A stretch of 34,646 bases of DNA, taken from contig QXXX01000080.1 in the NCBI GenBank assembly GCA_009887195.1, positions 409 to 35,054 on the forward strand, in the 5' to 3' direction. The position numbers and the translations under genes are program-made. This DNA comes from Candidatus Poseidoniales archaeon. GTDB taxonomy: Archaea; Thermoplasmatota; Poseidoniia; Poseidoniales; Poseidoniaceae. Shown here in pieces: positions 3,987 to 33,655 of this stretch (position 1 is the stretch's first letter; the number at the start of each line of letters is the position of its first letter). Under the pieces are notes generated by a model. That model searched no databases, was not told the origin of the DNA, and was given only the letters and a program-made list of their open reading frames with translations.

Positions 3987-4090
3987 TTTATCGTCCGTGG
4001 TTCAGTACATTGCCTTTTGAAGATTTAGCCGGCATTAGTCGAAAATATCTATTTTGAAGTAATTTAGCGCCACATGGTTGTGACTTTGGA

Positions 4091-4777: not shown

Positions 4778-4864
4778 ATTCCAAAACCACAGCCGCTCAT
4801 AAATAAATAATCCCAACAAGCGTTTATTGCATTAATTCAAATAATACTGCTTTTTGAACAGACC

Positions 4865-6874
4865 ATGCGTAAAGAAGGTATGACTCGCGATTGGAATGGT
4901 GCAGACCAACTCATAATGTATGCAATCGTTGGCTTAGTAAGCGTCAGTATGCTTTCTCTTGGCGCATATGTCATTATGTCTGCCGGTGAAGAAGACTCTT
5001 CACCCTCATCCATGGATCAAGAAGCATGGATCGACCCAACTATCGAGATTGAGGATGAAAACCACAGTCACACCGATCTACTCGCTCACCGACTACAAAC
5101 TAGCAACATGCAACTAATTGACTATCACAACCTAAACTGTGATGGTAACGTTGCACCACCTGCTGAACTTGATAACGTAGCAGGAAGACCTTGTTTCCCT
5201 GAATACAAGAATGTAGGACCCACTCCTGGAGACTCTTCTGAAATCGCCATAGAAGGTAATTTCATGGAAGACTGTGTTAAAAACCCAGATGGTTCAGGCG
5301 GTTGCTATGCTTATGTTTCATCTTACAACCAGTTTGAAATTCTAGATATCTCAAAACCAAATAATATTACTTTACTCTCGACATATTACGCTGAAGTTGG
5401 CCGTATGATTGACATCAAGGTTACTCCAGACAACAACTGGGTTTTGGTCAATCACGAACTTACCAACAGCGATTTAGATCCAATTCCAACTGACGATGAT
5501 GCTAACAGTGGTGCAAACCGCTTAGACGTAATATCCGTAGTTAACAAGAATGAACCAATCAAGGTTGCAGAATGGAACAATCCTCCAGCCGGATTCCACA
5601 ATCAAGACATGCACGTGGATTGTGACTGGGAGCCAGCCAATCCACTATGGTCTATCGAAGAATGTCACCTTTTCTTATACGGCGCTGACCCATATCCAGA
5701 AATGGTTGAGGGAGATTCAGGAACTTTTTACAAAGGCACTCAAGTGTTTTATGTCCCGCTTGGATTTGAGTCTTGGAACCCTACATCCACAGACGAACAG
5801 CAAAATGACAGTCGACAAATTCTACGCTGGGGCGGATATTCACCTGAGCCTGAAACAACTTGCGGAGGATCCATTTTTAACCACGACAATGTATTTCACA
5901 TTCATCCAATAACAGGACAGAAACTTCTCTATATCTCTTATTGGGATGCAGGATTGCGTATCGTTGATGTGTCAAATCCACCAGAAGTTCCAGACCCCGA
6001 AGGAATCTCTTGGCCACAAGATAACGAAGTCGGCCGCTGGCTTGGTTGCCCAAGTGCCAGCGATGGCTGGTACGGTCCTGATGGTGGGGGACATGCTAAC
6101 ATGACCTCAGAAGAATGGGGTGGCAGCAGTGGTGCGCTAAACGGCAATGGCTGGATTCATTATGCGGTGCCATACGAACACCTACTGTGCAATGGTGCAG
6201 CTGAGTTCGATCCGGTAAACACTTGGGACGATGAATGTGGAACAGGCCCTGAAGACCCAGTCTACGGCATTAACTGGCGACACTTGACTCTCATTGCTCC
6301 TGAATATGGCACCAACACTAATCACACCGGTTACATTTGGACTATCGACACAACCGACCCAGCAAACCCATTCTTACTCAGCAAGTGGAAATTACCAGGA
6401 ACAAGTATTCTGCCAGATGGCAGCGAACACCCACACCACTACATCCCAGGCGGCTATATCTACAGTCCACACAATGGTGATACTGGAACTAACGGGCACG
6501 TTTACTGGACGCATTATCACGCCGGTAACTGGGTAACCGACCACAGCCAAATCTGGAATGATGTCAAGTGGGTAAACGATGTACCAGCACCAGAAGTTGG
6601 TTTCCCAGCGATTGAACAACTTGCTGAGACTCTCACTATGGGTTACTATTCGCCTGCAGGACCAACATGGATTGAAGACCCTAAGGAAACCCTAGGTTAT
6701 GACATGGCTGATTGTTGGGCATCTTGTATGATTCCATTTGACTGGGGGCTGCAATATGACCCACGAGGATTCTTGTTCATCTCTGAAATGGTATCGGGAA
6801 TCTATGTTGTACAAATGGATGAAGACATTAACCAGAATTATCTCTACCCACCATTGTATGCTACTGATGAGTAA
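4865..6874 (+). CDS. Membrane-anchored LVIVD-repeat-like beta-propeller surface protein
   Basis: 669 aa; N-terminal TM anchor LIMYAIVGLVSVSMLSLGAYVIMSAG; LVIVD-like repeats (FEILDISKPNNITLLSTYYAEVGRMIDIKVTPDNNWVLVNHE; YISYWDAGLRIVDVSNPPEVPD). Start could be M at 4880. Confidence 0.8.
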   Translation: MRKEGMTRDWNGADQLIMYAIVGLVSVSMLSLGAYVIMSAGEEDSSPSSMDQEAWIDPTIEIEDENHSHTDLLAHRLQTSNMQLIDYHNLNCDGNVAPPAELDNVAGRPCFPEYKNVGPTPGDSSEIAIEGNFMEDCVKNPDGSGGCYAYVSSYNQFEILDISKPNNITLLSTYYAEVGRMIDIKVTPDNNWVLVNHELTNSDLDPIPTDDDANSGANRLDVISVVNKNEPIKVAEWNNPPAGFHNQDMHVDCDWEPANPLWSIEECHLFLYGADPYPEMVEGDSGTFYKGTQVFYVPLGFESWNPTSTDEQQNDSRQILRWGGYSPEPETTCGGSIFNHDNVFHIHPITGQKLLYISYWDAGLRIVDVSNPPEVPDPEGISWPQDNEVGRWLGCPSASDGWYGPDGGGHANMTSEEWGGSSGALNGNGWIHYAVPYEHLLCNGAAEFDPVNTWDDECGTGPEDPVYGINWRHLTLIAPEYGTNTNHTGYIWTIDTTDPANPFLLSKWKLPGTSILPDGSEHPHHYIPGGYIYSPHNGDTGTNGHVYWTHYHAGNWVTDHSQIWNDVKWVNDVPAPEVGFPAIEQLAETLTMGYYSPAGPTWIEDPKETLGYDMADCWASCMIPFDWGLQYDPRGFLFISEMVSGIYVVQMDEDINQNYLYPPLYATDE

Positions 6875-6897
6875 TCAAATTACTAACAACTGAATTG

Positions 6898-7971
6898 TCA
6901 TTCTTCTTCAAACGCGGGAGATTCAGCATTAAATTTTGACTCTACTTCTTCGATCGCATTTCGAAGCACTAAGCCGTGATAAACTTTGATGCCTTTGTCC
7001 TTAACCGTCTGGTTAACTGCCTTTTCTAGCTCAATTAATTCATCCTTTGATTTAGCACCCTCTATCTTGGTTAACAAATCTCGGTATTTACTCGCTCTAA
7101 CGTAATAGATGGCGAAGTAGGTTGGAATTAACAATAATGGAATGACTAATTCCTCAAACACGATTTCCATGAAGGCAGAAACAGAAAGTTCGAAACTCTC
7201 CGCATCATAGCCTTGACTAAACGAGTTACCGTTTAATCCACCTGAGTAAAAGACACCGCTATTAATGCCAAAATACAGATTAAACGGGGTTTCATCAGCA
7301 TCAAAAATATCAGAACCACGATCCAATTCCACCGAATCTGGCCAACCATCATTGTCATTATCGCTATCTATGACGTCAGGAATAGTATCTCTATCAGTAT
7401 CAAGGGGCGTTGATAGTGGGTTGTATGGGTCGTATAGAATCGTGCCAGACGATGCAGCTCGCTCTAATTCGTTACGTATTCCATCACCATCTGCATCATC
7501 ATCATAGATGTCGGGCATGAAATCTCCATCTATGTCAGAACAACCAACTAGTCGAATTTTGCTTTTTCCATATGCAGCTGGACAATTGTCAGATAACTCG
7601 TGGCCACCTTGGTCAGCATAACCGTCTTCATCAGTATCTGACCAAATTTTGGTAATTGTTGGCCAAACATCTTGCGCATTTTCTACCCCGTCGCCATCAA
7701 TATCATTATCGGAATTATCACCAATTCCATCGAGGTCTAAATCTGCATGCTCTGATGAATTATTAGGAAAAGCATCAGCACCCATGACAATAGTCCAATT
7801 CTCATCAGCATCAGACCATCCATCCCCGTCTGAATCCAAACAGCCAATTCGGTCTTCGGTTGAATCACCACTGGCCACACATGGAGAATCTTGCGCTGAC
7901 GCAGAGGTTATAGAAAATCCTGAAACGATTACCGCCAGCAGTATTATCACAACAATTTGTCTTGATGCCAT
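6898..7971 (-). CDS. Secreted thrombospondin type-3 (Ca2+-binding) repeat protein with C-terminal TM and cytosolic tail
   Basis: Signal peptide MASRQIVVIILLAVIVSGFSITSASAQ; repeated DxDxDGxxD motifs (CLDSDGDGWSDADE, DLDLDGIGDNSDNDIDGDGVENAQD, DTDRDTIPDVIDSDNDNDGWPD); TM around EELVIPLLLIPTYFAIYYV. Confidence 0.82.
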   Translation of the reverse strand: MASRQIVVIILLAVIVSGFSITSASAQDSPCVASGDSTEDRIGCLDSDGDGWSDADENWTIVMGADAFPNNSSEHADLDLDGIGDNSDNDIDGDGVENAQDVWPTITKIWSDTDEDGYADQGGHELSDNCPAAYGKSKIRLVGCSDIDGDFMPDIYDDDADGDGIRNELERAASSGTILYDPYNPLSTPLDTDRDTIPDVIDSDNDNDGWPDSVELDRGSDIFDADETPFNLYFGINSGVFYSGGLNGNSFSQGYDAESFELSVSAFMEIVFEELVIPLLLIPTYFAIYYVRASKYRDLLTKIEGAKSKDELIELEKAVNQTVKDKGIKVYHGLVLRNAIEEVESKFNAESPAFEEE

Positions 7972-8056
7972 GCGTACCGGTCTGTTTGAACATTAATGGC
8001 TTTATTGCTATGCATTGTGACAAAACCTTGAAAACCCAACATTACAGCATTTAGCC

Positions 8057-8581
8057 ATGCGATTGCAGATTCTAGTCATAACGACTCTGTTATTGCTGCC
8101 GTCATTAAGCGGTTGTGTCGAGGAAGCAGCAGAAGCACAGGAATTCCCACAATTCTCTGCCGTGGCCGATGATGAACTAACTTACAACAATTCGAGAATG
8201 GCCGGTGCCCCCTATATTGTGATGTTTTCTGCAGAATGGTGTAATAGCCCGTGTTATTCTACTTTGCATTCAATATGGAATGCGCAGGCAGAACTCCCAG
8301 TATTGGTGATGTCCACCGATCCAGCCAAACGCGCTGGCGGGGTCACTTTACAACAATGGCATGAATCGGCTAATGCTCACGATGATGAGGAAAATGATAC
8401 TGGTATTGAGTTGTCAACCTATGCCTTCATGAAGGGTGATGATACTGCGCTTGAAATGGATATTACCACTCCTGGGACGACCTTTTTCATCAATTCAGCA
8501 GGCATTATCACCGATCGCCACGAAGGCTTACTAGATGACCAAGAGTTAATTTCGTCATACTGGGAATCAGCGTCACAATAA
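8057..8581 (+). CDS. Thioredoxin-like lipoprotein with CxxxC (CNSPC) motif
   Basis: Lipobox LLPSLSGC; thioredoxin-fold-like strand and motif VMFSAEWCNSPCYS, later TPGTTFFINSAGIITDRHEGLL (cis-Pro-like TPGTTFF). Confidence 0.7.
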   Translation: MRLQILVITTLLLLPSLSGCVEEAAEAQEFPQFSAVADDELTYNNSRMAGAPYIVMFSAEWCNSPCYSTLHSIWNAQAELPVLVMSTDPAKRAGGVTLQQWHESANAHDDEENDTGIELSTYAFMKGDDTALEMDITTPGTTFFINSAGIITDRHEGLLDDQELISSYWESASQ

Positions 8582-18499: not shown

Positions 18500-18605
18500 A
18501 AATTCCACCTTAGTTATAAGAATATTAATTTTCTTTATATATAGTCATATACCCGATTCATAGTTGGCCAAACCCCTTTTATCTTGCTTAATAAGACGCC
18601 AGTTC

Positions 18606-21230
18606 ATGCTCAGGGAGAAAGGCAAGCGGCTTCCTCTTCCCAAGGTATTTGCCACAGTCATGGTAATGCTATTTCTCGTGCCTGGCTGTTTGGATTTTGG
18701 CAACGATGATGAAGCACCCTCCTCGGCTAGTGACGGGCCAATAACTATCGAAGTATGGCACACATTTGCTGCTGAAAGCAAGGAGGAAGTGGCTTTCACC
18801 AATGCAGTTAGAGATTTTGAAACAGCCCACCCAAATATTACCGTTGAGATTACCCTAGTGCCGTTTGGTAATGCTGACCAGTTATTCATGACCGCCGCCC
18901 AAGGCGGCGAAGCACCCGATTTGATGCGACTTTCTAGTGACCAACTTGGGGCAATTGGTGAAGTGCGGGTTGACGGATATCCATTACTTGAGGACCTACG
19001 TCCACACTTAACACCGCAAGATAGAGCTCAATTTGAAGCAAGAGCGCTTGATTCAATGCGTTATGGCGAGGAATTGTATGGCATTCCAGCCAGCCAAGAT
19101 TGCCTTTCATTGATTTACAATAAGGCATTATTTGATGCCGAGGGACTAGATTATCCCAATGAAAATTGGACCGAGCAAGATCTTTTAGCAGCCGCCCAAC
19201 AATTAACTCAACAAGATGTTCAGGGTCTTGCTTTACCGATAAAAACCGCTTACTGGTGGTTTCCAATCCAGGAAGGATTTGGCGGCAGTTTGTTTGATGA
19301 GCAAGGCAATCCAACACTTGACTCAAACGGCTCTAGTGAAGCGATGAGATGGATGCTTGATTTGGAATTGACCGAAGAAGTAGTCGCTACTGGAACGCAA
19401 ATTGAAGGGATGAAGAACCAATTTATCACCTCTAAAGCAGCAATGATTGTTGACGGCCCGTGGAATTGGGCAACTTATGAAGACAGTCGGCTAAATATCG
19501 GGCAAACCCTGCTGCCAACAGTTGTTCAATCAGGTGAACGCATGTCACCCCTTGTCACCTACAAAGGCTGGACGGTAAGCAAACAAAGTGCTCACAAGGT
19601 CGCAGCAACCGAATTGGCGCTCTGGCTATCATCACAATCAGTCCAGCAAGAATTCGCACTAGAAACCTATACTATGCCAACGCACGTAGCGCTTGACACG
19701 GACCCAGCAATCATCAACGACGAGGTAATTTCGGGATTTTTAGAACAAACTAAACTAGCCACTCCAGCCCCAACTACTCGTGCTATGTCGCTGATATACG
19801 GCCCCCTTTCCACTGCTTTTGAACAAGCATATACTGGTACTGCAAGTACCTCTGATGCTTTGAGCGACGCCAATGATGAATTAATTTCTCTAATCGAGAA
19901 TCTGCAGCGTGCAGATCAGGTAGAACCGAATCCTGGTTATCGGGTAATTGACGCAAACATTTCTACAGATGATTCACAAAATTATACGATTTATGTCGAT
20001 GGAAAACTACACACTGAATTACAATTAGATGTTGGGCAAGGTGTCACAAATAGCGGTTATGATGTCTGTACTGCGGACGGTAATCAAATGAACCAAAGCG
20101 GTCAAATGAGGCTATTTCCTGATACAACTAAACAAATCAAATGTAGTTTAACAGGGATGATTCCAGATAAATTACACCTGATTGAAGTGTATTCTCAAAA
20201 CGGGCAGGTCATGAGTTTTGAAGCCGTAACCGGGGTTGGGGACCAGCGGCCTGAATCAGGTGACACCTCACCAGTTCTATTTGCTATTGGAGCAATAGTT
20301 CTCTCGCTAATTGCCCTGCTTAGTTACGGCCGATATCGCGACGGTCAATTGGGTCGCACCAATTCACGATTGGCCCATTTCTACATTGCACCAGCAATGT
20401 TGGCTTTGGCAATTCTAACATTTTACCCCGTAATGTATGGCTTTTGGCTGTCGTTTACCGATGCCGACCAAACCCACTTAGGTGAGCAAGCCTTCATTGG
20501 ACTGACTAATTTTTGGGAGGTAATAACCGCTTCTGGGTTCATTAGAGTGACGATATTTACCTTGGTTTGGACGGTTGTCAACGTTACTGCGCACATCGGT
20601 ATCGGACTATTTCTAGCCCTAATTTTGCAGCGTGCAGACCTCAAGGGAAAAACCGCTTATCGAACAATTTTGCTATTGCCTTGGGCGGTACCGTCCTATA
20701 TTTCGGTCTTAGTTTGGAAAGGGATGTTCCAGCCTGATGGCTTGATTAACGATTTACTCGGCACGGATATCAATTTCTTATCTGATCCAACCGGAGCCCA
20801 AATCGTAGTTATTTTGGTAAATATTTGGCTTGGAGTTCCATTCATGATGATGTCCATCAGTGGTGCGTTACAAGCCCTACCAAAGGACATGTATGAGGCT
20901 GCTGAGGTTGAAGGTGTTACAGGATGGGAGGCATTTAGACACCTGACCCTGCCTAATCTGAAAAGTGCATTAGTGCCGTTATCCTTGCTTGGATTTATTT
21001 GGACTTTCAATATGTTCAATGTAATTTACTTAATGACCGATGGAGGCCCCAATCTCTACTTTGGAGAGCCTGGCCAAACAGATATTTTGATCACTTATGT
21101 TTACGATGTTGCCTTTAGAGATGGCGCATATGGTGTTGCAGCAGCCTGGTCAGTGATAATTTTCCTAATGCTTCTAGCATTCTCATGGACTTACATGAAG
21201 CAAACTAACGCAACGGAGGCGGCTGCATGA
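18606..21230 (+). CDS. ABC transporter fusion: extracellular solute-binding lipoprotein (MalE-like) + MalF-type permease
   Basis: Lipobox VMLFLVPGC; SBP family-1 features (ITIEVWHTFAAESKEEVAFTNAVRDFETAHPNITVEI, APDLMRLSSDQLG, YGIPASQDCLSLIYNKALFDAEGLDYP, KAAMIVDGPWNWATY); intervening beta-rich segment and TM; permease IAPAMLALAILTFYPVMYGFWLSFTDADQ... with EAA loop EAAEVEGVTGWEAFRHLTLPNLKSALVPL. Single uninterrupted ORF. TATA-like TTTTATC about 28 bp upstream of ATG 18606. Confidence 0.92.
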   Translation: MLREKGKRLPLPKVFATVMVMLFLVPGCLDFGNDDEAPSSASDGPITIEVWHTFAAESKEEVAFTNAVRDFETAHPNITVEITLVPFGNADQLFMTAAQGGEAPDLMRLSSDQLGAIGEVRVDGYPLLEDLRPHLTPQDRAQFEARALDSMRYGEELYGIPASQDCLSLIYNKALFDAEGLDYPNENWTEQDLLAAAQQLTQQDVQGLALPIKTAYWWFPIQEGFGGSLFDEQGNPTLDSNGSSEAMRWMLDLELTEEVVATGTQIEGMKNQFITSKAAMIVDGPWNWATYEDSRLNIGQTLLPTVVQSGERMSPLVTYKGWTVSKQSAHKVAATELALWLSSQSVQQEFALETYTMPTHVALDTDPAIINDEVISGFLEQTKLATPAPTTRAMSLIYGPLSTAFEQAYTGTASTSDALSDANDELISLIENLQRADQVEPNPGYRVIDANISTDDSQNYTIYVDGKLHTELQLDVGQGVTNSGYDVCTADGNQMNQSGQMRLFPDTTKQIKCSLTGMIPDKLHLIEVYSQNGQVMSFEAVTGVGDQRPESGDTSPVLFAIGAIVLSLIALLSYGRYRDGQLGRTNSRLAHFYIAPAMLALAILTFYPVMYGFWLSFTDADQTHLGEQAFIGLTNFWEVITASGFIRVTIFTLVWTVVNVTAHIGIGLFLALILQRADLKGKTAYRTILLLPWAVPSYISVLVWKGMFQPDGLINDLLGTDINFLSDPTGAQIVVILVNIWLGVPFMMMSISGALQALPKDMYEAAEVEGVTGWEAFRHLTLPNLKSALVPLSLLGFIWTFNMFNVIYLMTDGGPNLYFGEPGQTDILITYVYDVAFRDGAYGVAAAWSVIIFLMLLAFSWTYMKQTNATEAAA

Positions 21231-22474
21231 TTAGTGAGCGAGTGATTCGGGCTTGGTACACTCCAGCAGAAGTTTTGGCCTTGCGACGTTGGCTAGTTGT
21301 GGCAACAGTAGTCAATATCGTATTGCTTACATTTGATTATCTGCGTGGCGATAGCCAAATCTTACTGCTCGGCCTTTTCGGCTGTACTGTATTAGCGGCT
21401 TTACGTAACTTTTTGCCCGCAGCTAACAACCCCAACAAACGCAATATTTCCCTGCTATTATCTGGGGCAATAATCGCCGTTGGCATTTATCGGTTTATGT
21501 TGATGCCAATCTCCATGTTTAATTTCTGGCTTTGTGCTTGGATGATAATTCCTGGACTAATCGCATTATATTGGTTATCAAATCAGGCAGTATCGGTATG
21601 GGCAACCCGTGAATTGTCCATTTCTGCGGTTGAATACGGGCTTTCAAGGAACTTCGAATTAAACAAGAAATACCAAAGAATAGGTTCTCATACCACACTA
21701 TTACATTTCTCAGTGATCACTTTAATTCCAATAATTTGGATATTCGATATTGCCTTATCTCCGGGGAATGCGCTTGGTGGTGAAATTGGAGACTCCTTTA
21801 GTGGTGAGCACTTTTCCAAGATCCTTGAAGGAGACTCCTTTTGGATTTGGTTTAGAAATTCCCTAATTGTTTCAATCGGGACAAGTTTACTTGGATTAGT
21901 AATTGCAATCCCTGCTGGATATGCGTTTAGTAGATACAAATTCACCGGGCGAGATGTTTCTATGTTTGCGTTCTTATTAGTGCAAATGTTCCCTGGAATA
22001 ATTATCTTAGTGCCTTATTTCTTGGTTATGAAAACCCTAGGTTTACTTAATTCTCATCTCGGGTTAATTCTTGCTTACTGTGTAACAGCATTACCATTAT
22101 GCGTTTGGATGTTGAAAGGCTTCTTCGATACCGTGCCCCGTGAACTTGAAGAAGCAGCCGCTTTAGATGGGTGTAACCAATTCCAAGTCTTCACCAAAGT
22201 CGTGCTGCCATTATCGATGCCTGCCGTGGCAGTAACTGCTCTGTTTAGTTTCCTTGCTGCTTGGAATGAATTCCTCCTCGCACTGACCTTCAATACCTCC
22301 AATGACATGTACACATTGCCAGTCGGCCTTGCATCATTAATTTCCTCAACCGGTCAAGCGTGGGGAGATTTTGCCGCTGCTAGTATTTTGGTTAGCCTGC
22401 CAGTAGCGTTGTTGTTTTTATTCTTCCAGAAGTTCCTCATCGAGGGGCTATCTGCAGGTGGAGTTAAAGGGTGA
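21227..22474 (+). CDS. MalG-type ABC sugar permease with extended N-terminal membrane region
   Basis: ATGA overlap with upstream gene and GGAGG SD; core permease FSGEHFSKILEGDSFWIWFRNSLIVSIGTSLLGLVIAIPAGYAFSRYKF..., EAA loop EEAAALDGCNQFQVFTKVVLPLSMPAVAV; about 150 extra N-terminal residues with several hydrophobic segments. Confidence 0.92.
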   Translation: MISERVIRAWYTPAEVLALRRWLVVATVVNIVLLTFDYLRGDSQILLLGLFGCTVLAALRNFLPAANNPNKRNISLLLSGAIIAVGIYRFMLMPISMFNFWLCAWMIIPGLIALYWLSNQAVSVWATRELSISAVEYGLSRNFELNKKYQRIGSHTTLLHFSVITLIPIIWIFDIALSPGNALGGEIGDSFSGEHFSKILEGDSFWIWFRNSLIVSIGTSLLGLVIAIPAGYAFSRYKFTGRDVSMFAFLLVQMFPGIIILVPYFLVMKTLGLLNSHLGLILAYCVTALPLCVWMLKGFFDTVPRELEEAAALDGCNQFQVFTKVVLPLSMPAVAVTALFSFLAAWNEFLLALTFNTSNDMYTLPVGLASLISSTGQAWGDFAAASILVSLPVALLFLFFQKFLIEGLSAGGVKG

Positions 22475-22478
22475 TTGA

Positions 22479-23255
22479 ATGGTAAATGTAAGATATAACT
22501 CGGTATCAAAGAAATATGATGACGGCTTTGAAGCGGTAAAAGAATTGAATTTAGAAATAAAAGATGGCGAATTTTTGGTGTTACTGGGCCCGTCAGGCTG
22601 TGGCAAGTCAACAACTCTGCGAATGCTTGCTGGGCTAGAAGAAGTGACTAGCGGCGAAATACAAATTGATGATGTGACAGTCAATCATTTGCCACCTGGA
22701 GCAAGAGGTTTAGGAATGGTGTTCCAATCTTATGCCTTGTATCCACACATGTCAATTGCTGACAACCTATCGTTTGGTTTGCGCATGGCCAAAGGTGGAG
22801 CAAAACTAAGCGGTGATGAGATTAAGGCACGAGTTCAAGAAGCTGCCGAAATGCTAGACTTAGTTGACCACCTCGATAAAAAACCCAAGGAGTTAAGTGG
22901 TGGACAGAGACAAAGAGTGGCTCTTGGCAGAGCATTAGTCCGTAGGCCAAAAGTGCTGTTGATGGACGAGCCTTTATCGAATTTAGATGCTGAATTAAGA
23001 CATCAAATGCGCAGCGAGATTCGTAAATTACATGATGAACTTGGAACTACGACAATTTATGTTACGCACGACCAAATCGAGGCGATGACCTTAGCAGATC
23101 GAATTGCTATCCTCGACAAAGGCGTGCTACAGCAACACGATGAGCCACTAAATGCATACCATAACCCAGCAAACGAGTTCGTCAAAGGCTTTCTTTGCCA
23201 ACACATCGATGATTTGGTACAAACAGCAAACAACCTTTTCAAGAAAACAGAATAA
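22479..23255 (+). CDS. MalK/MsmX-like ABC transporter ATPase, short form lacking the C-terminal regulatory (OB/TOBE) domain
   Basis: Walker A GPSGCGKST, Q-loop VFQSYALYPHMS, signature LSGGQRQR, Walker B VLLMDEPLSNLD, H-loop THD; ends at ...NEFVKGFLCQHIDDLVQTANNLFKKTE (258 aa). Confidence 0.95.
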   Translation: MVNVRYNSVSKKYDDGFEAVKELNLEIKDGEFLVLLGPSGCGKSTTLRMLAGLEEVTSGEIQIDDVTVNHLPPGARGLGMVFQSYALYPHMSIADNLSFGLRMAKGGAKLSGDEIKARVQEAAEMLDLVDHLDKKPKELSGGQRQRVALGRALVRRPKVLLMDEPLSNLDAELRHQMRSEIRKLHDELGTTTIYVTHDQIEAMTLADRIAILDKGVLQQHDEPLNAYHNPANEFVKGFLCQHIDDLVQTANNLFKKTE

Positions 23256-23272
23256 CCTAGTGGGTGAGGCAG

Positions 23273-26155
23273 ATGCGTAATCAGGTAGTCGTGGCAATCT
23301 TATTCCTAACGGTATTATTGTTGCCAATGGTGCCGGTAACGGCAGATAATCCAGATATTGACTATCAAGACGGTCAAACCGTATTTACTTGGTCTGGCAC
23401 CGCTTCAACAGTTGAATTAATTGGCGAATGGAATTGGAGTGAAACGTCATCATTATCTGAACAAAACGGTATTTGGTCTACTACTATTTCAATTGATGAA
23501 GGACAATATTGCTACAAATTAATCGTTGATGGGGAGTATATTTTTGACCCAGCAAACCCGTATCGTGGTTATTGTGATAATATCGAAAATTCTGTTGTTC
23601 GAGTTAAGGATTCAGTTCGTCCCAATTTTGCTAGCGAAATAATCAATCAGCAACTAATTGTCAGTTTTCTGCCCGGTACTAGTGGGGCAGGCCCAGACGG
23701 GATTCCAGCTGGCTTAGAAGCGGCTGTATGGGATGAGGCGTCCATGTCATGGACGCTTGCTTTGGCTGGCTTAAGCGATGGAAAACACACGCTTGATTTG
23801 GCAATAACCGATACCAATGGTAATGTTGCCTATGACCATCTAGTGCCGTTTTGGACCGGTCCACAAAGTGATTTCTCGTGGGAAGATTCTTTGATTTACA
23901 TGATAATGACTGATCGTTATATCAACGGCAATACGAGTAATGACCCCTCGCCAACTGGTGCCGCCGCCGGTGCTGATTGGATGGGCGGTGATATTGAGGG
24001 AGTCACCAGCAAAATTCAATCTGGTTATTTTGCTGAACTTGGAGTAAATGTTCTATGGCTAACCCCACTTAACACCAATGCTCAAGGCACAGGGATTGCT
24101 GGTGATGGGCAACATGATGTTGCAGCATATCACGGCTATTGGCCTGTCGAGCCACGACAAGTTGACCCTCGACTTGGTACTGCAGAGCAACTCAAAACGA
24201 TGGTTGATGCAGCCCATCAATCAGGTATTCGTGTGATGATGGATTATGTTGTTAATCACGTTCATCAAGACCACACCTACTATCAAGATAATCCGGAATG
24301 GTTCAATCAAGGATGTTTATGTGGCTCAGCGAATTGCGATTGGACTGAACACCGGCTTGATTGCCAATTCACCTCATACATGCCGGATGTTAACTGGAAA
24401 GTTCGTAATGCCTCTGAACAATTTATTGAGGACGCGTTGTGGTGGCTAGAAGAATTTGATTTTGATGGTGCTAGAATCGATGCGGTAAAACACGTAGAAG
24501 ATTTAGCGATTACCAATTTAGCGACGAGAATTAACGAGCGTTTTGAAACAGTGGGCACAGATTACTATCTCAAAGGAGAGACTGCAATGGGCTGGTCTGG
24601 ACATAGCCTTGCGGATAACCAATTTCAATACGACACCATCAACCAGTATATTGGTGAAGACTCACTAGACGGTCAAGCAGATTTTGTTCTCTATCACGCA
24701 GTTGTTGACAATGTCTTTACTCAAGGGATTGAAGATTATCAGCATCTAGATTATTGGACCAATAGAAGTCAAGATCAGTATGTTGATGGGGCAACAATGG
24801 TGCCGTATGTGGGCAGTCATGACGTTCCAAGAATCGCAAGTAGAGCAGATGCTGGAACCGGAGATTCTGACAATCAATGGCAAGAAGATGGACTACCTGG
24901 CCAGCCTGGCGATGCGTCTGCCTATCAAGCAGTATTACAAGCATACGGCTGGCTTCTTACAACTCCTGGTGCACCGTTATTGTATTATGGTGATGAATAT
25001 GGCGAATATGGTGGAGCAGACCCCGATAATCGACATATGTACCGGAACTTGACAACTTGGAGCCAATTTGAACAATCATTATTCGATAACATTTCACAAA
25101 TCGGCCAATTACGCGCTGAGTCAATTGCTCTCAAGCAAGGCAGTTATTCCACACGATATGCTAGCCCGGATTTGTTAATTTACGATATGTCTCACGCCGA
25201 ACAAAACATGTCAGTCATTCTTAATCGAGGACAATCCACTACTATTCAAGACTTTGATTCGGGTGATGTCATTAGATTTGGCGAAGCAGCAATATCATCT
25301 GCGGGCATCAACATCCCTGGTAACTCAGTTACCATTATCGAATTAGACGGCAATCCAACAATGCCGCAAAGAGAGCCAGACAGTCATTGTTTAATCGTCA
25401 ATAATTTCACCATGAATACGACTTATTTCATTACCCTCGATTTGACAAATACCTGTACCAAAGAACTACATTACCCTGGAGTCAACTCCTCTATTGACAA
25501 TAATTTAGTCACCGGATTTCCCGATTATAATGAATGGTTCTACATGATTTTCCCTGAAACCTCTTACAACATGTCTTGGCAATTAGCAGTCAATGAAACG
25601 ATTCCAAACGGCACATTAATCACTTTATTGTTCAATGCTACGATACTTAATTGTGGCCCACAAGGCGACTGGCACGATTGCCCAACATCTAGTCTAGAAC
25701 ACTCTTTTAACGTATTATGGCCCAGCAATGAAACAAATACCACAAGTCCACCAGTTGAGCCTCAACCGATCTTAGGCTGTACAGATGATAGTGCGCTAAA
25801 CTATCAAAATGACGCTACTGAAGACGACGGAAGTTGCACTTACCCAATAGATAATCAGAACAATAACACAGATTCCCAAGTCAATAATAGCAATAATGAT
25901 TCAGCTATCGAAGATAATACTAACACAACTCAGACTAGTAACCAAACCGATTTATTGGTGAAAAATTGCTCTATGTGTTGCGGAAAGTTTATCCAAATTC
26001 CAATCAATCACCCCTGCCCGGTACCCGATTGTCAATCGTGTGATGAGCAATCTGTTGATAGTAAATCCACTGCTGGAGAATTTGTTAGATCTGCCCTTGC
26101 AGTAGCAGTATTTATTGGCGTGGTAGTGCTATTTTTTGTTAGTAGAAAGCAGTGA
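23273..26155 (+). CDS. Secreted, membrane-anchored GH13 alpha-amylase-family glycosidase with N-terminal CBM48/AMPK-like domain and GCTD..DDGSC cysteine motif
   Basis: Signal peptide; VELIGEWNWSETSSLSEQNGIWSTTISIDEGQYCYKLIVDGEYIFDP (CBM48-like); GH13 motifs MDYVVNHVHQDH, FDGARIDAVKHVE, LKGET, YVGSHDVPR; GCTDDSALNYQNDATEDDGSC; Cys-rich segment; terminal TM ALAVAVFIGVVVLFFVSRKQ. ATG 23273 preceded by SD-like GGTGAGG; the ORF-track start 23264 is a GTG. Confidence 0.92.
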   Translation: MRNQVVVAILFLTVLLLPMVPVTADNPDIDYQDGQTVFTWSGTASTVELIGEWNWSETSSLSEQNGIWSTTISIDEGQYCYKLIVDGEYIFDPANPYRGYCDNIENSVVRVKDSVRPNFASEIINQQLIVSFLPGTSGAGPDGIPAGLEAAVWDEASMSWTLALAGLSDGKHTLDLAITDTNGNVAYDHLVPFWTGPQSDFSWEDSLIYMIMTDRYINGNTSNDPSPTGAAAGADWMGGDIEGVTSKIQSGYFAELGVNVLWLTPLNTNAQGTGIAGDGQHDVAAYHGYWPVEPRQVDPRLGTAEQLKTMVDAAHQSGIRVMMDYVVNHVHQDHTYYQDNPEWFNQGCLCGSANCDWTEHRLDCQFTSYMPDVNWKVRNASEQFIEDALWWLEEFDFDGARIDAVKHVEDLAITNLATRINERFETVGTDYYLKGETAMGWSGHSLADNQFQYDTINQYIGEDSLDGQADFVLYHAVVDNVFTQGIEDYQHLDYWTNRSQDQYVDGATMVPYVGSHDVPRIASRADAGTGDSDNQWQEDGLPGQPGDASAYQAVLQAYGWLLTTPGAPLLYYGDEYGEYGGADPDNRHMYRNLTTWSQFEQSLFDNISQIGQLRAESIALKQGSYSTRYASPDLLIYDMSHAEQNMSVILNRGQSTTIQDFDSGDVIRFGEAAISSAGINIPGNSVTIIELDGNPTMPQREPDSHCLIVNNFTMNTTYFITLDLTNTCTKELHYPGVNSSIDNNLVTGFPDYNEWFYMIFPETSYNMSWQLAVNETIPNGTLITLLFNATILNCGPQGDWHDCPTSSLEHSFNVLWPSNETNTTSPPVEPQPILGCTDDSALNYQNDATEDDGSCTYPIDNQNNNTDSQVNNSNNDSAIEDNTNTTQTSNQTDLLVKNCSMCCGKFIQIPINHPCPVPDCQSCDEQSVDSKSTAGEFVRSALAVAVFIGVVVLFFVSRKQ

Positions 26156-27826
26156 TTAGTCTTTGAATGATTGATAAAAACGTAGATAATCTGTAATCAT
26201 TCTAGCCCCAGTAAATCTTGCCGAGGTGGCAATACTTGAGCGCATAATATTGGCCCAAACCGTGCCGCCTTGCCGCCATGCTGGTAAAACGTCTTGTTCC
26301 AAGACCTCGTAGATATTGTTAGCATCACGCTCATCATCGCGGTCATCTTCAGATTCACCAATTGCCCATCCATTGACGCCGTGCTGACAACCTTCAGGCC
26401 ACCATCCATCAAGAATTGAGCAATTTGGTACACCATTCATTGCGGCTTTCATCCCTGAAGTTCCCGAAGCCTCTAGCGGCCTGATTGGATTATTGAGCCA
26501 AATATCAACACCACTGGTAATCGCTAAACCAGTATCCATGTCATAATTCTCCAAAAATGCAACCGGTATTTCACCTTCTATTTGCTTCGCGCTGCCATAA
26601 ATATCTCTAATCAACTGCTTACCGCCTTCATCTTTTGGATGTGCTTTTCCAGAGAACACGAATTGTATTTCACCACCAGCAATCTCTCTCAACCGCTCGA
26701 TATCGCTGAAGACTAGATTCGCTCTTTTGTAGGTGGCAAATCTTCGAGCAAATCCAACTGTCAATTTTTCTTTATGTAATTCAACTCCTGTCGATGCTTT
26801 GACCAATTCACGAAAGATACTGCGGTTTTTTTCTCTAGCCGCAAGTAGGTCTTCATCAGAGAGTTTCCCTGAATAAGCTAGTTGAGTTGGGTCACGTTGC
26901 CAATTTGGCAATTGATTGTCATATAGTTCTGCCATAGTAGGGGAAGTCCAGGTGATATGATGAACGCCATTGGTAATTGGATGAATATGAGTCTCGCCAT
27001 ACATTCCCGAAGCAACTATTGCATTGAGATTTGACACCGCATTCACCTTGTCAACTAATCCTACAGCGAGGTGTGACATCGAGCATCGCTCGCCATTTTC
27101 CGGGTCTCCAGCAGCAATTACCAACTGTCTTGCATCATCGGGTAACATTTCACCAAGCACGGCTTTTACCGATTCCCAATTGAAGCGGTCGTGTCCTGCT
27201 GGAACTGGTGTGTGCGTGGTGAACAGTATTTTCTTTTCGAGGTCTTTTCTAGTCCAGCCTTTACCCAATAATTCAAGCAGTGCAAAGGTACAATGCCCTT
27301 CATTTAGATGCAGTCCATCCAGTTCTATGCGTAGCAGATTTAGTAATCTTAATCCTCCTACGCCAAGTAAGAATTCTTGTCTAATTCTAACTTCATCGTC
27401 CCCGCCATATAATCTCGCTCCGAGTACACGATGGTATTCTGAATTTTTTGGGTGATGAGTGTCAAGGAAATACACCGGTACGACGTGGCCGGTTATTCCA
27501 ACAACTTCGACCTTCCAAATCCTAGAGTATATCGTTGTTCCATCAAGGGGCAACATCAGTTCTAATCCAGTATCGATTAAATGGTCAGCGGGATCTAGTG
27601 CTGCGAACGACTCAGATTGATTGCCATCTTGGTCAATATGTTGTCGGCCATAACCTTCTCGATAGAGTAATGTAACGCCAATTAAATCAATCTCAGCATC
27701 TGCTGCAGACTTGACATGGTCTCCTGCTAAAACACCAAGTCCGCCCGAATATGTGTGTAATTCAGACCACAAACCAATCTCTGCAGTGAAGTAACCGATG
27801 TGCCCCATTCGAAGAAACGGTATCAA
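26156..27826 (-). CDS. glgP: Alpha-glucan (glycogen/maltodextrin) phosphorylase, GT35, short archaeal type
   Basis: 556 aa; IGYFTAEIGLWSELHTYSGGLGVLAGDHVKSAADA, HLNEGHCTFALLEL, FTTHTPVPAGHDRF, NGVHHITW, VGFARRFATYKRANLVFSD, FSGKAHPKDEGGK, PLP-site motif EASGTSGMKAAMNGVPNCSILDGWW. Start could be M at 27808. Confidence 0.95.
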   Translation of the reverse strand: MIPFLRMGHIGYFTAEIGLWSELHTYSGGLGVLAGDHVKSAADAEIDLIGVTLLYREGYGRQHIDQDGNQSESFAALDPADHLIDTGLELMLPLDGTTIYSRIWKVEVVGITGHVVPVYFLDTHHPKNSEYHRVLGARLYGGDDEVRIRQEFLLGVGGLRLLNLLRIELDGLHLNEGHCTFALLELLGKGWTRKDLEKKILFTTHTPVPAGHDRFNWESVKAVLGEMLPDDARQLVIAAGDPENGERCSMSHLAVGLVDKVNAVSNLNAIVASGMYGETHIHPITNGVHHITWTSPTMAELYDNQLPNWQRDPTQLAYSGKLSDEDLLAAREKNRSIFRELVKASTGVELHKEKLTVGFARRFATYKRANLVFSDIERLREIAGGEIQFVFSGKAHPKDEGGKQLIRDIYGSAKQIEGEIPVAFLENYDMDTGLAITSGVDIWLNNPIRPLEASGTSGMKAAMNGVPNCSILDGWWPEGCQHGVNGWAIGESEDDRDDERDANNIYEVLEQDVLPAWRQGGTVWANIMRSSIATSARFTGARMITDYLRFYQSFKD

Positions 27827-27865: not shown

Positions 27866-29110
27866 TTAATTTAGCTCAGGCCACGAAAAACGCCAGCGCC
27901 AATTACCTTGCTCAACTCCAGGTATATTCATGCGCGCAGCAGAATCCAGTCGCAGAATATCTTGCAGCGGAATAATGCATAACTGACTATTACCTTTAGT
28001 CGCTAAATCAATCATTGAACCGATAATGTCGTCGGAGTCCCCAACCAAATCTATCACTCTCCGTTTACTGGTATCCTTGATAGAATTCCACCAACCAAGT
28101 GTAGTATCATTATCATGGGTGCCAGTATAAGTTACCTGCATCGATGAAATATTGCTGGGATGATGTGGGCTTGTTGTATAGTCATCATCAAAGCCAAATT
28201 GTAGAACCGCCATGCCTTTTAGATTAAATTTCAATCGCAAATCAATCACCTCTTGTGGAATAATACCAAGATCTTCAGCAATTATTCTTGATTCATCACC
28301 AGCAACCTCGATTAGCTGCTCAATAATTTTCTCTTTAGGTGCTTCTTGCCACTGTCCGATTACTCCGTTTTCTGCTTCTCTTGGTACCGCCCAAGCCGAA
28401 TGGAAACCTCGGAAATGGTCTATTCTAACAATGTCATACAACTTTAGCATTCTCGCCATTCGCATGCGCCACCACATCCAATTACTCTTTTCATGTTCTG
28501 CCCAGTTATACAACACAGTGTTCCATTTTTGTCCGGTTTCACTAAAATAATCTGGCGGCACGCCGGCGACAACAATCGGCAAACCATGATCATCTAATTG
28601 GAATAATTCACGATGCGCCCACACATCTGCGGAATGGTGTGAAATAAAAATCGGCAAATCACCAACAAGTTCGATATTTGACTGATTGGCATAATTTTTC
28701 AATGCCAACCACTCATTCTGAAATATGCCTTGCTTGGCAACTTCCTCACCAATCCTATCACGCCATTTTGCCATTTCGACAGGGTCCCTGTCGCGTAATG
28801 GTTTTGGCCACTGTGTCCAATCTTTATTTGGGAACTCTGCGCTAATTGTGGCAAATAATGCCCAGTCATCAAGCCAATATTCTTCTCCAGTCAGTTGCTT
28901 AGAATTAGTCTGCGTACACAAACCAAAATGTCCAGCAAATGCTGAAGGCGACGCATATGGAGAGCCGTGTTTGTCCGGCGGAGTTAGCGGTAAGAACTGC
29001 CATTTTGAGTAATTATTTTCACTTAAAAAATCAACGAATTTAGCCCCGTCTGAAATTTTCCCATTGGGTAGCGAGGTAATGTGACATAGCACGCCAATCT
29101 CACTGCTCAT
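27866..29110 (-). CDS. malQ: 4-alpha-glucanotransferase (GH77, amylomaltase)
   Basis: MSSEIGVLCHITSLPNGKISDGAKFVDFLSENNYSKWQFLPLTPPDKHGSPYASPSAFAGH, VGDLPIFISHHSADVW, YDIVRIDHFRGFHSAWAVP, IIAEDLGIIPQEV, YTGTHDNDTTLGWW. ORF-track start 29140 trimmed to MSSEIG with a TATA-like TTTATTGTT about 20 bp upstream. Confidence 0.95.
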   Translation of the reverse strand: MSSEIGVLCHITSLPNGKISDGAKFVDFLSENNYSKWQFLPLTPPDKHGSPYASPSAFAGHFGLCTQTNSKQLTGEEYWLDDWALFATISAEFPNKDWTQWPKPLRDRDPVEMAKWRDRIGEEVAKQGIFQNEWLALKNYANQSNIELVGDLPIFISHHSADVWAHRELFQLDDHGLPIVVAGVPPDYFSETGQKWNTVLYNWAEHEKSNWMWWRMRMARMLKLYDIVRIDHFRGFHSAWAVPREAENGVIGQWQEAPKEKIIEQLIEVAGDESRIIAEDLGIIPQEVIDLRLKFNLKGMAVLQFGFDDDYTTSPHHPSNISSMQVTYTGTHDNDTTLGWWNSIKDTSKRRVIDLVGDSDDIIGSMIDLATKGNSQLCIIPLQDILRLDSAARMNIPGVEQGNWRWRFSWPELN

Positions 29111-29164
29111 ATCTAAGCGCCTAACAATAAACCCTTTCAAGTTATCATATTGTGGGTGGTTCTA

Positions 29165-32100
29165 ATGAGGACGACTGCGGTATTTATTGTGACATTATTC
29201 TGTTTGCAAGCAGGTATGGGTTTTGTATCTGCCCTGACTCCAGAAACCATAACCATTGACGGCGACGTTGCCGAGTGGTCCTCGGATAGTGAAATGGCTT
29301 CAGACGACAATGCAGTCACCTATTATTCAACTTGGGATAATGATAATTTCTACGTCGCTTGGACGGGTACAGATTGGGCAGATTCTATATCTGGAGCAGA
29401 TTTATTCATTTACTTCAATACTAGCGAAGGTGGCTCAGTCCTCAGTAAAGATTGGGGATTTGCCCACACCTTGCCTTTTTCTGCGGATTATGGTTTTGCG
29501 TTAGAAGATTCAACATATAATCAAAAGTTTGCCTTTGATGGTACATCTTGGCAAGATCAAGGACCCTTGCCTGAGCAGGACATCTATGTCGGATGGGCTG
29601 ATAATACGGTGACAGAACTAGCCATCCCTTGGTCAGCCATCGGCTCGCCGACTAGTTTGCAATTCATGATTTATGCCCAATGGCAAGACGAAGGAAATGT
29701 TTGGACCTCATTCCCTGCAGCAAACCCTTCAAGTTCTAATGGCGCAGAAACCTTTACTCATTATTATCACCTTGATAATAGGAATAATGCAACAGCACCC
29801 AATACTCTACCAGTAATTGAAAATGGAGCAATAGACAAGGTAGATGATGCTCTTAATTTAGCAATTATTTTCCATCAACATCAACCATATTACAAGAATA
29901 AGCTAACCAATACCTACGAGATGCCGTGGGTAAGAGTTCACGCCATGACCGAATATGTCGATTCTCCGGGAATACTCGCACAAACTGGCACCAAAGTAAC
30001 TTACAATTTAGTTCCGTCATTTATTGAACAATTGGTTGATTATTATGAAAATGAAACCCTCGATGACCATACTGATATGGCAAAGCGACCATGGCCAGAA
30101 GGAAATTACCCCAATGCCACCGCCTTAGAATTACACACTATGCAATTCCAATCTTTTTGGAATAGTGGCTGGATTTACAACGTCTCTGAAACCGGACATA
30201 TTCAATCATGGCTTTATCCATCTAGTGCCAGGTATTCAGAACTTTATGATATGACGCTGCATAATCTAAAACCAGCCACTATAATGGACGACACCTTACT
30301 ATCTCCTCAAGATTATTTAGATCTTCAAGTGCTTTGGTACTTGTATCAATTTTCACCTGACTATGTCCTCGGAGAATATGATATATCTCACCGAGATCAA
30401 GGATTAATTGATTTATTCATGCAAAATGGCCAGTATACTCATACCGATTTGATGTATGTTATAGATCAACAACACCAGCATATGGCAAATGTTTTACCAA
30501 TGTATAGTCAACTAGCTGCTGAAGGCCAAATTGAGTTAACTACTACGCCGTACTATCATCCAATTATGCCACTGTTGATGATGGATGGCTGGACTATGGA
30601 AGATGGTATTAGAGTTAACAAAGACTCTTGGCCAGTAGACGTTCAAGACCATTTAGTCAACGGAATGGACTTGTTTGAGGCAAAACTTGGCTTTAGGCCA
30701 ACTGGTATGTGGCCAAGCGAGCAGGCGGTTTCTCCAGCAATGGTTGAACCAGTTTCTGATGTCGGAATCCAGTGGATGGTTAGTGATGAAGAAATTCTAC
30801 TCCAGTCTACTGATTCCTCTGGCAATCTAATCGATGTTGATGATGCAAGTAATTTAGCAACGCCATGGAAGGTTACTGGTGAAGATGGCGGCGAAGTTGC
30901 GGTGGTATTTCGTGACCGCGTCATATCCGACAGAATTGCTTTCCAGTATGGGACGATGACTCCTGAAGCTGCGGTGTCTGATTTTATTGCCTACCTCGAT
31001 AATATTCGGCAACAATTACTAGATGCTGGTGAGGACCCTTCCGAGCATTTGCTGACAGTTGCGCTTGACGGAGAAAATTGGATGTTCATGTCTGAATTCC
31101 AACATCAAGATAATGCTCGTCCGTTCATGCATGAATGGTATTCACGTTTAGCATCTCATCCAACTATCGTAACCACCACTCCAAGTGAATTCCTATCGAC
31201 AGAACCGACGTTGCCTGAAATCGAAACTATCGGCACAGGGTCTTGGATTGATGGGACTTTACGAACTTGGGCTGGCGAGCCAGAAGAGAGTTTAGGTTGG
31301 CAACGATTAGTCGAAGCACGCCAAGCATTAGTCGGATTTCAAGCCGATAACCCAACTCATCCAGGTTTGTCAAATGCTTGGGAATCACTGTATATTGCCG
31401 AAGGTAGTGACTGGTTTTGGTGGTATGGATTAGACCAAGACAGTGGCTATGATGAGAATTGGGACGTTTTGTTTAAGGTTCATTTGTCCAATATCTATCG
31501 AGCAATCAATATCGATTTACCGCCTTATCTGCAAGATTTGTGGACTGGAGCAGCAACTCCTGTAGTACCTTATGGCGGAATTATTGAGCCAATGATTGAC
31601 GGAATAGCCTTGCCCGGTGAATGGGATGGTGCCGCTAAATATGATGCATCAGTTGATGGCGGTGATTTTGATATCGACAATTTCTATGTCGGTTATGATT
31701 CGAGTAATATCTTCATGCGCATCGATTCAGTAACCGCCGATGAACTTGATGCAATTTCCCGCAATTCGCAGTTTGATGAACCTGATTTAGCCATTTATTT
31801 CATGCAGCCAAACGCGGTAAACTTCAATGAAGTTGAAACAAATTTCCGCACCTATTACGGCAATCAGATACTTGGTTTTCCGGCCAAATACATGGTAGCC
31901 ATTGATTTTGATACCGTTAGAGAAGACGGTCGGGCTAAGTGGAACTTGTTTGAGGCAAAAGGCAAATCGGGAGACTCTGAACAATGGGTGCTAACCAGCA
32001 CTTCTTCACTTGGCGATTGTGCGGTTGATGACGTCTATGAATTTGTAATACCGTGGGCAGACATCGGCCTTGCTCCAAGATACACTACGAGAATTAAGGT

Positions 32101-33655
32101 AGTTTCTTCTTGGGCAGCATCACTATCTTATGGCGATGGTGAAGACATGGAAATTGCCCCACCTGCACCAGCAGAATTAGTCTTACCAGATTTGGAAGAG
32201 TGGGTTACTTTACTTGAATTGGATGATGTAGTTGGTGATGAAAATGGCGATGGTGACTATACCTATCCGCTGGCCAGCGATTTCGCAACCGATAATGGCG
32301 GTGGCTTATGGGACGCTAAGAAAGTCACAGTACGTCAAAGCGCATGGAATGCTCAATTCATCATTGAAATGGATGAGATGACTGATATTTGGGGTCTAGC
32401 CAACGGTTTTAGCCATCAAATAGTGCAAATTTATGTCGATCAGGGCGATACAACTTATGGTGAAACCGAGATGCTTACCGGCGCTAATGCCGAAGTACAT
32501 CCAGATTGGGCATGGGAAGTTGCTATCAGTGGCACTGGTGAGCCAGGTGCTGTACAATCAGTACAAGCTGAGACTGGCAGCACCTCAGCAAGAGGCATTG
32601 ATGTGACCGGCAATGTCGATGATAAAACCATCATTTTCACAGTCAGCAAAGACGTGATTGGTAGTGATGTTGCTAATTATCGCTATATCATTGTAATTGG
32701 TAGTCAAGATGGTTTTGGAACCGGTAAGTGGCGTGACGTTGATGCAACAGCCAAAACTTGGCGTCTTGGCGGCGGTGCTGACCCAGCCGACGATGATGGA
32801 ATTGATTACGACCCAAACATTGTCGATATTATTCTTGATGGCGATGGGCAACAAGCAATGCTGTCTTCTTACGATGTCAATGGGCACGTATATGCCCAAC
32901 TAACCGGCTTTGAAATGCCGGCGATTGCACAGCAAATTTATGGCTTCAAGTATGTCAGTAGTACCGCTGATTCAGCCATTTTAGAATGGTCAACAACTCA
33001 GGCTGCATCTGGTGATTTGTCTTGTAATGAGGTAGGCCAAACCACAGTAGCAGTCAATCAATCATGGAGTAGTGAAGAGCTTACCAATACTGTAACTGCA
33101 ACTGGATTAACCGCCGGTACAGAATACGAATGTAGAGTCTCAATTGGCGATATTCTGTCAGAAAGGGTGAATTTCACAACCTCAACTGTAATCGATACTG
33201 AGGCTCCAGAACTGCTTAATTTAGCGGTTGAAGTATTGGATGATGGCAGAGCCAGAATTTCATGGTACAGTTCCGAGAGTGCCACCGAACAAGTATCTTT
33301 AGACGGCGTAGTTATCTTTACCGATGAGTTTGCAACAAAGAAAAATCACCAATATATTACGACAATTTTGGCTGATGGCACTTATGCTCTGATAATTACT
33401 GGATCTGATGCATCAGGAAATAGTAACAGTTCTTCGATTAATTTCGTTGTTGATATTGGCGACCAAGTTGTTGATAACGGCGATAATAATGCAGGGACGT
33501 CGCCAGATAATTCGGCTGAGGAAGAAGATTCTGCCAGTTCAGATATCTCTTCGATGACCATGCAGATTGCCGTATTGGCGATTATACTGTTGCTTGTTAT
33601 TGCCTTCATTAGAGTTAATCGAAATGATTCTAGCGATGATGAAAAGTGGTCTTGA
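29165..33655 (+). CDS. Large secreted, TM-anchored GH57 alpha-amylase/amylopullulanase with CBM9/DOMON-like, glucodextranase-C-like and FN3/Ig-like domains
   Basis: About 1496 aa from MRTTAVFIVTLFCLQAGMGFVSA with SD-like GGTGG upstream; N-terminal ITIDGDVAEW... domain; GH57 motifs LAIIFHQHQPYYKN, GMWPSEQAVSP, VALDGENWMFM; second IDGIALPGEWDGAAKYD... domain; VVGDENGDGDYTYPLASDFATDNGGGLWDAKKVTV (glucodextranase C-like); FN3-like ADSAILEWSTTQAASGDLSC...LTAGTEYECRVSI; acidic linker and TM MQIAVLAIILLLVIAFIRVNR. Confidence 0.92.
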   Translation: MRTTAVFIVTLFCLQAGMGFVSALTPETITIDGDVAEWSSDSEMASDDNAVTYYSTWDNDNFYVAWTGTDWADSISGADLFIYFNTSEGGSVLSKDWGFAHTLPFSADYGFALEDSTYNQKFAFDGTSWQDQGPLPEQDIYVGWADNTVTELAIPWSAIGSPTSLQFMIYAQWQDEGNVWTSFPAANPSSSNGAETFTHYYHLDNRNNATAPNTLPVIENGAIDKVDDALNLAIIFHQHQPYYKNKLTNTYEMPWVRVHAMTEYVDSPGILAQTGTKVTYNLVPSFIEQLVDYYENETLDDHTDMAKRPWPEGNYPNATALELHTMQFQSFWNSGWIYNVSETGHIQSWLYPSSARYSELYDMTLHNLKPATIMDDTLLSPQDYLDLQVLWYLYQFSPDYVLGEYDISHRDQGLIDLFMQNGQYTHTDLMYVIDQQHQHMANVLPMYSQLAAEGQIELTTTPYYHPIMPLLMMDGWTMEDGIRVNKDSWPVDVQDHLVNGMDLFEAKLGFRPTGMWPSEQAVSPAMVEPVSDVGIQWMVSDEEILLQSTDSSGNLIDVDDASNLATPWKVTGEDGGEVAVVFRDRVISDRIAFQYGTMTPEAAVSDFIAYLDNIRQQLLDAGEDPSEHLLTVALDGENWMFMSEFQHQDNARPFMHEWYSRLASHPTIVTTTPSEFLSTEPTLPEIETIGTGSWIDGTLRTWAGEPEESLGWQRLVEARQALVGFQADNPTHPGLSNAWESLYIAEGSDWFWWYGLDQDSGYDENWDVLFKVHLSNIYRAINIDLPPYLQDLWTGAATPVVPYGGIIEPMIDGIALPGEWDGAAKYDASVDGGDFDIDNFYVGYDSSNIFMRIDSVTADELDAISRNSQFDEPDLAIYFMQPNAVNFNEVETNFRTYYGNQILGFPAKYMVAIDFDTVREDGRAKWNLFEAKGKSGDSEQWVLTSTSSLGDCAVDDVYEFVIPWADIGLAPRYTTRIKVVSSWAASLSYGDGEDMEIAPPAPAELVLPDLEEWVTLLELDDVVGDENGDGDYTYPLASDFATDNGGGLWDAKKVTVRQSAWNAQFIIEMDEMTDIWGLANGFSHQIVQIYVDQGDTTYGETEMLTGANAEVHPDWAWEVAISGTGEPGAVQSVQAETGSTSARGIDVTGNVDDKTIIFTVSKDVIGSDVANYRYIIVIGSQDGFGTGKWRDVDATAKTWRLGGGADPADDDGIDYDPNIVDIILDGDGQQAMLSSYDVNGHVYAQLTGFEMPAIAQQIYGFKYVSSTADSAILEWSTTQAASGDLSCNEVGQTTVAVNQSWSSEELTNTVTATGLTAGTEYECRVSIGDILSERVNFTTSTVIDTEAPELLNLAVEVLDDGRARISWYSSESATEQVSLDGVVIFTDEFATKKNHQYITTILADGTYALIITGSDASGNSNSSSINFVVDIGDQVVDNGDNNAGTSPDNSAEEEDSASSDISSMTMQIAVLAIILLLVIAFIRVNRNDSSDDEKWS

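Follow-up and report, generated by a model that had tools for sequence, protein, structure and literature searches.

The window analysed here is a stretch of 34,646 nucleotides from a Poseidoniales contig, and its forward strand carries at 18606-21230 a malE-malF fusion gene, defined by its open reading frame and translation, Pfam matches and orthologues. No internal stop interrupts the 874 residues read from the ATG, and an alternative in-frame TTG start at 18564 would extend the product to 888 residues. The protein opens with a signal sequence (18606-18689) in which a basic n-region is followed by a hydrophobic stretch up to the lipobox LVPGC, with cleavage predicted before Cys28; the hydrophobic segment covers residues 14-32, and the g1 orthologues share the lipobox. 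A MalE-type solute-binding domain follows (residues 46-432; 18741-19901), matched by Pfam SBP_bac_1 at residues 61-347 (E 7e-28, 98.9 bits, cut-off 26) and, in the PDB, by GacH (1.6e-31), MalE2 (3.7e-28) and 6ffl (2e-26). Its solved relatives are maltose or maltodextrin binders, and the best NCBIfam model is the GanS/MalE-type binding protein. An 11-residue junction linker (19902-19934), equal in length in every fused row examined, leads from the last helix of the binding domain to a GYR motif, where an Ig/FN3-like beta-sandwich of about 107 residues begins (residues 444-550; 19935-20255), assigned from AlphaFold models and from homology to its N-terminal counterpart in unfused MalF. The remainder comprises a transmembrane helix (residues 557-575; 20274-20330), recognised by hydrophobicity and in the AlphaFold model and topologically equivalent to MalF TM2, and a MalF permease core without the P2 loop (residues 588-869; 20367-21212), delimited by Pfam, NCBIfam and an alignment with E. 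coli MalF. Within this core, Pfam BPD_transp_1 matches residues 665-859 (E 2.4e-15), the best NCBIfam model is MalF (E 1.5e-59), and the EAA coupling loop can be read in the sequence at 20895-20957 (EAAEVEGVTGWEAFRHLTLP). A single polypeptide therefore holds both a binding and a transmembrane domain, the defining feature of an SBP-TMD fusion importer. Compared with the locus L037, dN/dS is 0.007 in the binding domain, 0.13 in the linker plus beta-domain and 0.016 in the permease; values far below 1 in all three segments point to purifying selection maintaining every part.

Downstream on the same strand, malG (21227-22474; 415 residues; Pfam, NCBIfam E 1.5e-55) overlaps the fusion gene by ATGA. 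Its N-terminal extension of approximately 145 residues (21227-21660), with about four extra transmembrane segments, is common to fused and unfused operons and has no Pfam match. The adjoining malK (22479-23255; Pfam, NCBIfam MalK/UgpC) encodes an ATPase of 258 residues with Walker A GPSGCGKST, signature LSGGQ and Walker B LLMDEP (ABC_tran, 124 bits). It lacks the C-terminal regulatory domain, the profile matches ending at about position 235-240 of some 360-369. A long MalK (356-371 residues) is found in genera g2, g4 and g25, and fused lineages and some unfused ones (g9, g16, g17, g18) alike have the short form, so the loss of the regulatory domain is not tied to the fusion; nor is this domain an essential feature of a CUT1 or MalEFGK2-type importer. 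Further along lie a GH13 alpha-amylase with an AMPK1_CBM (CBM48-type) domain, an N-terminal signal and a C-terminal transmembrane segment (23264-26155, forward; Pfam, hydrophobicity), an alpha-glucan phosphorylase (26156-27826, reverse; Pfam, NCBIfam), a GH77 4-alpha-glucanotransferase (27866-29140, reverse; Pfam) and a GH57 amylopullulanase-like protein of 1501 residues with a Glucodextran_C module (29150-33655, forward; domain matches). Towards its C-terminus, the last of these may also carry a purple-acid-phosphatase N-like (FN3-type) domain, at an E-value of 7e-4 that falls under the cut-off. Most fused loci of sufficient length preserve the order malEF-malG-malK-amylase, and the predicted gene functions identify an alpha-glucan utilisation locus. 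An apparent MalK-amylase fusion in locus L083 was discarded, being due to a run of N.

The fusion is real and has long been conserved in many Poseidoniales. A contig scan with one genome per species found it in 76 of the 80 best loci, 4 being without it; these loci come from many independent assemblies whose titles are nearly all Poseidoniales or Euryarchaeota, and relatives identified by name belong to the Poseidoniales (Marine Group II). One bin titled 'Rhodobiaceae bacterium' (L088) is evidently mislabelled. The single-cell genome AG-461-G23 (L093) carries the fusion at 95% identity. The window's contig derives from a genome of 1.70 Mb that is 80% complete. The reading that an assembly error or frameshift has joined two genes was weighed. 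In its favour, malE and malF are separate in several relatives, and a g15 locus (L169) has frameshifts in this very operon; yet the intact fusion in 76 of 80 loci, a single-cell genome among them, and the constant linker length leave this reading with practically no weight. The apparent split at L169 (genome G154) was itself rejected as evidence, because malG there is likewise in overlapping broken frames and sequencing frameshifts are the probable cause. Open-frame lengths from the genome search were not counted as fusions, as such frames spanned stops in g2 and g9. Across the order, the permease was detected at E 1e-40 or better in 127 of 319 genomes, its absence elsewhere being partly due to incompleteness. 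The initial annotation, which had proposed a genuine MalE-MalF fusion in one frame and considered it unusual for an archaeal sugar importer, is thereby borne out on both points. It had also envisaged that relatives might encode separate malE and malF and that the frame might be an artefact of the junction: the former holds for some relatives, but the latter does not, independent genomes carrying the same frame.

The domain between MalE and the first transmembrane helix had been described as an extra module between two proteins, possibly a spacer or a docking element analogous to the MalF P2 loop. Residues 446-540 are all beta in two AlphaFold models: a full-length model (12 sequences), which at pLDDT 38 is usable only in its locally confident beta stretch, and a domain-only model (66 sequences) with pLDDT 84.5 and nine strands. 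In genera g2, g4, g9, g16, g17, g18 and g25, where malE and malF are separate, MalF consists of a signal/TM segment, a domain of the same kind, a transmembrane helix and the permease core. Domain profiles of fused and unfused forms match at E 2.4e-14 with zero shared rows (a comparison of row set A2 with the split forms was set aside because A2 includes split rows). Because the same domain stands at the N-terminus of unfused MalF in relatives, it is MalF's own and not an added module; sequence comparison identifies it as ancestral, an extracellular domain that MalF already bore at its N-terminus before the fusion. The first of the outer loops of E. coli MalF, which joins TM1 to TM2 (the P1 position), is short, and P2 sits between TM3 and TM4. 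By topology, the beta-domain occupies the P1 position, in a fused protein that has lost TM1/signal.

Equivalence of this domain to P2 as a docking module is accordingly unlikely. The domain is extracellular and P2 itself is missing, as such an equivalence would have it: the alignment with E. coli MalF runs to residue 98 and resumes at 254, where the fusion passes from 624 to 626, although the first aligned stretch of this comparison is weak (-1.3 bits). However, the domain lies before TM2 rather than between TM3 and TM4, it is found in unfused MalF, and it resembles Ig/FN3 sandwiches. Position and presence in unfused MalF together make it neither an inserted spacer nor a P2 counterpart; a docking role is possible, but homology to P2 is not supported. 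Regarding the fold, a Foldseek comparison of the domain with the PDB and viral structure libraries returned weak and mostly Ig-like matches (best E 0.0094, none below 0.001, TM-score at most 0.5), and a PDB profile search with the window's domain gave a best E of 0.36 and no significant FN3 match. The window's own domain has no fn3 match over the Pfam cut-off. The corresponding N-terminal domain of MalF in a distant relative (L213) matches Pfam fn3 at 30.4 bits (cut-off 25), and the fused forms match the L211-L213 domains weakly by profile (E 5e-4 over 28 columns). An Ig/FN3-like beta-sandwich is reasonably supported as the fold, and membership in the FN3 family is less so. MalF can thus bear an Ig/FN3-like extracellular domain without P2.

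The unfused operons suggest how the joining could have come about. In most of them malE and malF share 4 nt or lie end to end, and in L052 and L053 the TAG of malE directly precedes the malF start, so a short deletion would be enough to fuse them. By eye, unfused MalE ends 14-17 residues past the AL of its last helix, and the mature part of unfused MalF has roughly 8-12 residues ahead of GYR; fused proteins have 26 residues between AL and GYR, the spacing that would result from precise removal of the malE stop codon together with MalF's signal segment. The fusion is accordingly proposed to have arisen inside Poseidoniales by loss of these two elements between adjacent or overlapping genes. In an automatic count, the distance from the end of the binding domain to GYR was 11 residues in 108 of 108 fused rows, which represent two overlapping locus sets and hence fewer distinct genomes. 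This constancy favours one origin.

The trees are in conflict on this point. In the permease+MalG+MalK tree, fused forms do not form one clade (AU p 0.006) and three changes are needed, which would be expected had the fusion arisen several times independently within Poseidoniales. We regard repeated fusion as rather doubtful, since every fused row has the identical linker length, the SBP tree does not reject a single fused clade (AU p 0.19), and the SBP+beta tree needs only one change, albeit with a branch support of only 3. Moreover, g9 and g16 group together though they come from two different families, which suggests that the operon, or parts of it, moved between lineages by horizontal transfer. 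A single origin is tentatively favoured; repeated fusion, reversal or recombination could account for the conflict in the permease tree. Individual placements also deserve mention: L179 (genome G209, assigned to g13) has a divergent g2-like unfused operon unlike that of its genus mates, reflecting transfer or a binning error, and the operons of L188, L189 and L191 (assigned to g15 or g7) group with g1/g22/g14, reflecting transfer or misassigned bins.

With regard to membrane attachment, a lipobox is present in all 30 unfused MalE rows with a readable N-terminus. Among fused proteins it is found in most rows but is absent from g5, L193 excepted, and from the f2-type g7 rows; L082 and L190 score negative by the strict lipobox pattern yet read LQGC, and the rows behind these counts are not phylogenetically independent. 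Loss in some fused lineages fits the idea that the transmembrane helix makes the lipid anchor dispensable. The double tether of lipid anchor plus transmembrane helix proposed earlier is thus seen in the window's protein, and it is not general among fused proteins. These observations also bear on whether the fused product is made and then cleaved at the linker into an ordinary lipoprotein MalE and MalF. If MalE were released, the lipobox that many fused proteins retain would anchor it in the membrane; several fused lineages, however, lack this motif and could lose the freed MalE, and the linker is short, with a length that does not vary. Cleavage of this kind is very unlikely, and a protein that stays joined is the preferred reading.

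Elsewhere in the phylum Thermoplasmatota, outside the order, the same operon components are divided differently. L211:3871-6573, L212:3832-6534 and L213:4228-7098 encode malF-malG fusions of 900-956 residues with their own signal and N-terminal beta-domain, with malE outside and with extra transmembrane segments between the two halves; the MalG extension described above has no detectable homology to this MalF-MalG linker (Prob 0.1). Upstream of the malF-malG fusion, L213 (2-4231) and L217 (frame 2843 to 8230) have a 1795-codon frame that joins a GH57 amylopullulanase, Glucodextran_C, a transmembrane segment and a maltodextrin-type binding protein. In a tree rooted on canonical MalFGK, L211-L213 fall outside Poseidoniales on very long branches. 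Protein boundaries thus follow four arrangements, namely MalE / MalF-MalG (L211, L212), amylopullulanase-MalE / MalF-MalG (L213/L217), MalE / MalF / MalG and MalE-MalF / MalG, which indicates that boundaries within the operon moved several times. More tentatively, boundaries may have been redrawn repeatedly within one phylum, with the fused form as a possible self-contained importer in which the FN3-like arm replaces P2 docking and each transporter has one binding domain.

Together, the family-1 binding domain, a MalF/MalG-like permease pair with EAA motifs and BPD_transp_1 read in both members, and the MalK ATPase are the components of a CUT1 or MalEFGK2-type importer. It is probable that, in a maltodextrin importer of this type, MalE was recruited as MalF's extracellular N-terminal domain, working as proposed below. 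Judging from neighbouring genes and homologues, maltodextrin is the likely predicted substrate. The secreted amylase and GH57 enzymes would trim alpha-glucans outside the cell; a single tethered MalE domain per MalF-MalG heterodimer would catch the released maltodextrin and dock onto its own transporter; two MalK would drive import; and the phosphorylase and GH77 enzyme would process the sugar inside the cell. The FN3-like domain now probably serves as an arm controlling how far MalE can reach, and the fusion would hold binding protein and transporter at 1:1. Poseidoniales are abundant uncultured archaea of the surface ocean, and their fused and unfused sister operons provide a natural comparison for the effect of tethering on affinity, stoichiometry and the uptake of dilute sugars. 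For these same subclades, a published genome survey noted hydrolases of starch/glycogen and an annotation as 'galactose permease', in passages that do not describe the fusion (PMC6336850).

Compared with E. coli MalEFGK2, the system shares the MalF core, a MalG homologue, the EAA loop, the MalK ATPase and a maltodextrin-type binding protein; it differs in that the binding protein is fused, P2 is missing, an extra extracellular domain precedes TM2, MalG has about four extra transmembrane segments and MalK lacks the regulatory domain. GlnPQ and OpuA consist of identical fused subunits and hence have two or more binding domains per transporter. Binding domains fused to importers are well established for these two systems (PMC8025302, PMC11065425). 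The present protein resembles them in the covalent joining of a binding domain to a transmembrane subunit. Unlike in these homodimeric importers, malG here is a separate gene without a binding domain, so that the latter sits on the MalF half only, and the binding protein and permease belong to other families. The closest parallel is a MalE-MalF fusion in Bdellovibrio, of which 6ffl ('Maltose/maltodextrin transport permease homologue'), matched here at E 2e-26, is presumably the solved binding domain; both join a MalE-type domain to a MalF-type permease. The window's form differs from the Bdellovibrio fusion in being archaeal; its 11-residue linker runs onto an Ig/FN3-like domain. Fused binding proteins are thus already known in bacteria, and what is new is an order-wide archaeal form with an Ig/FN3-like domain.
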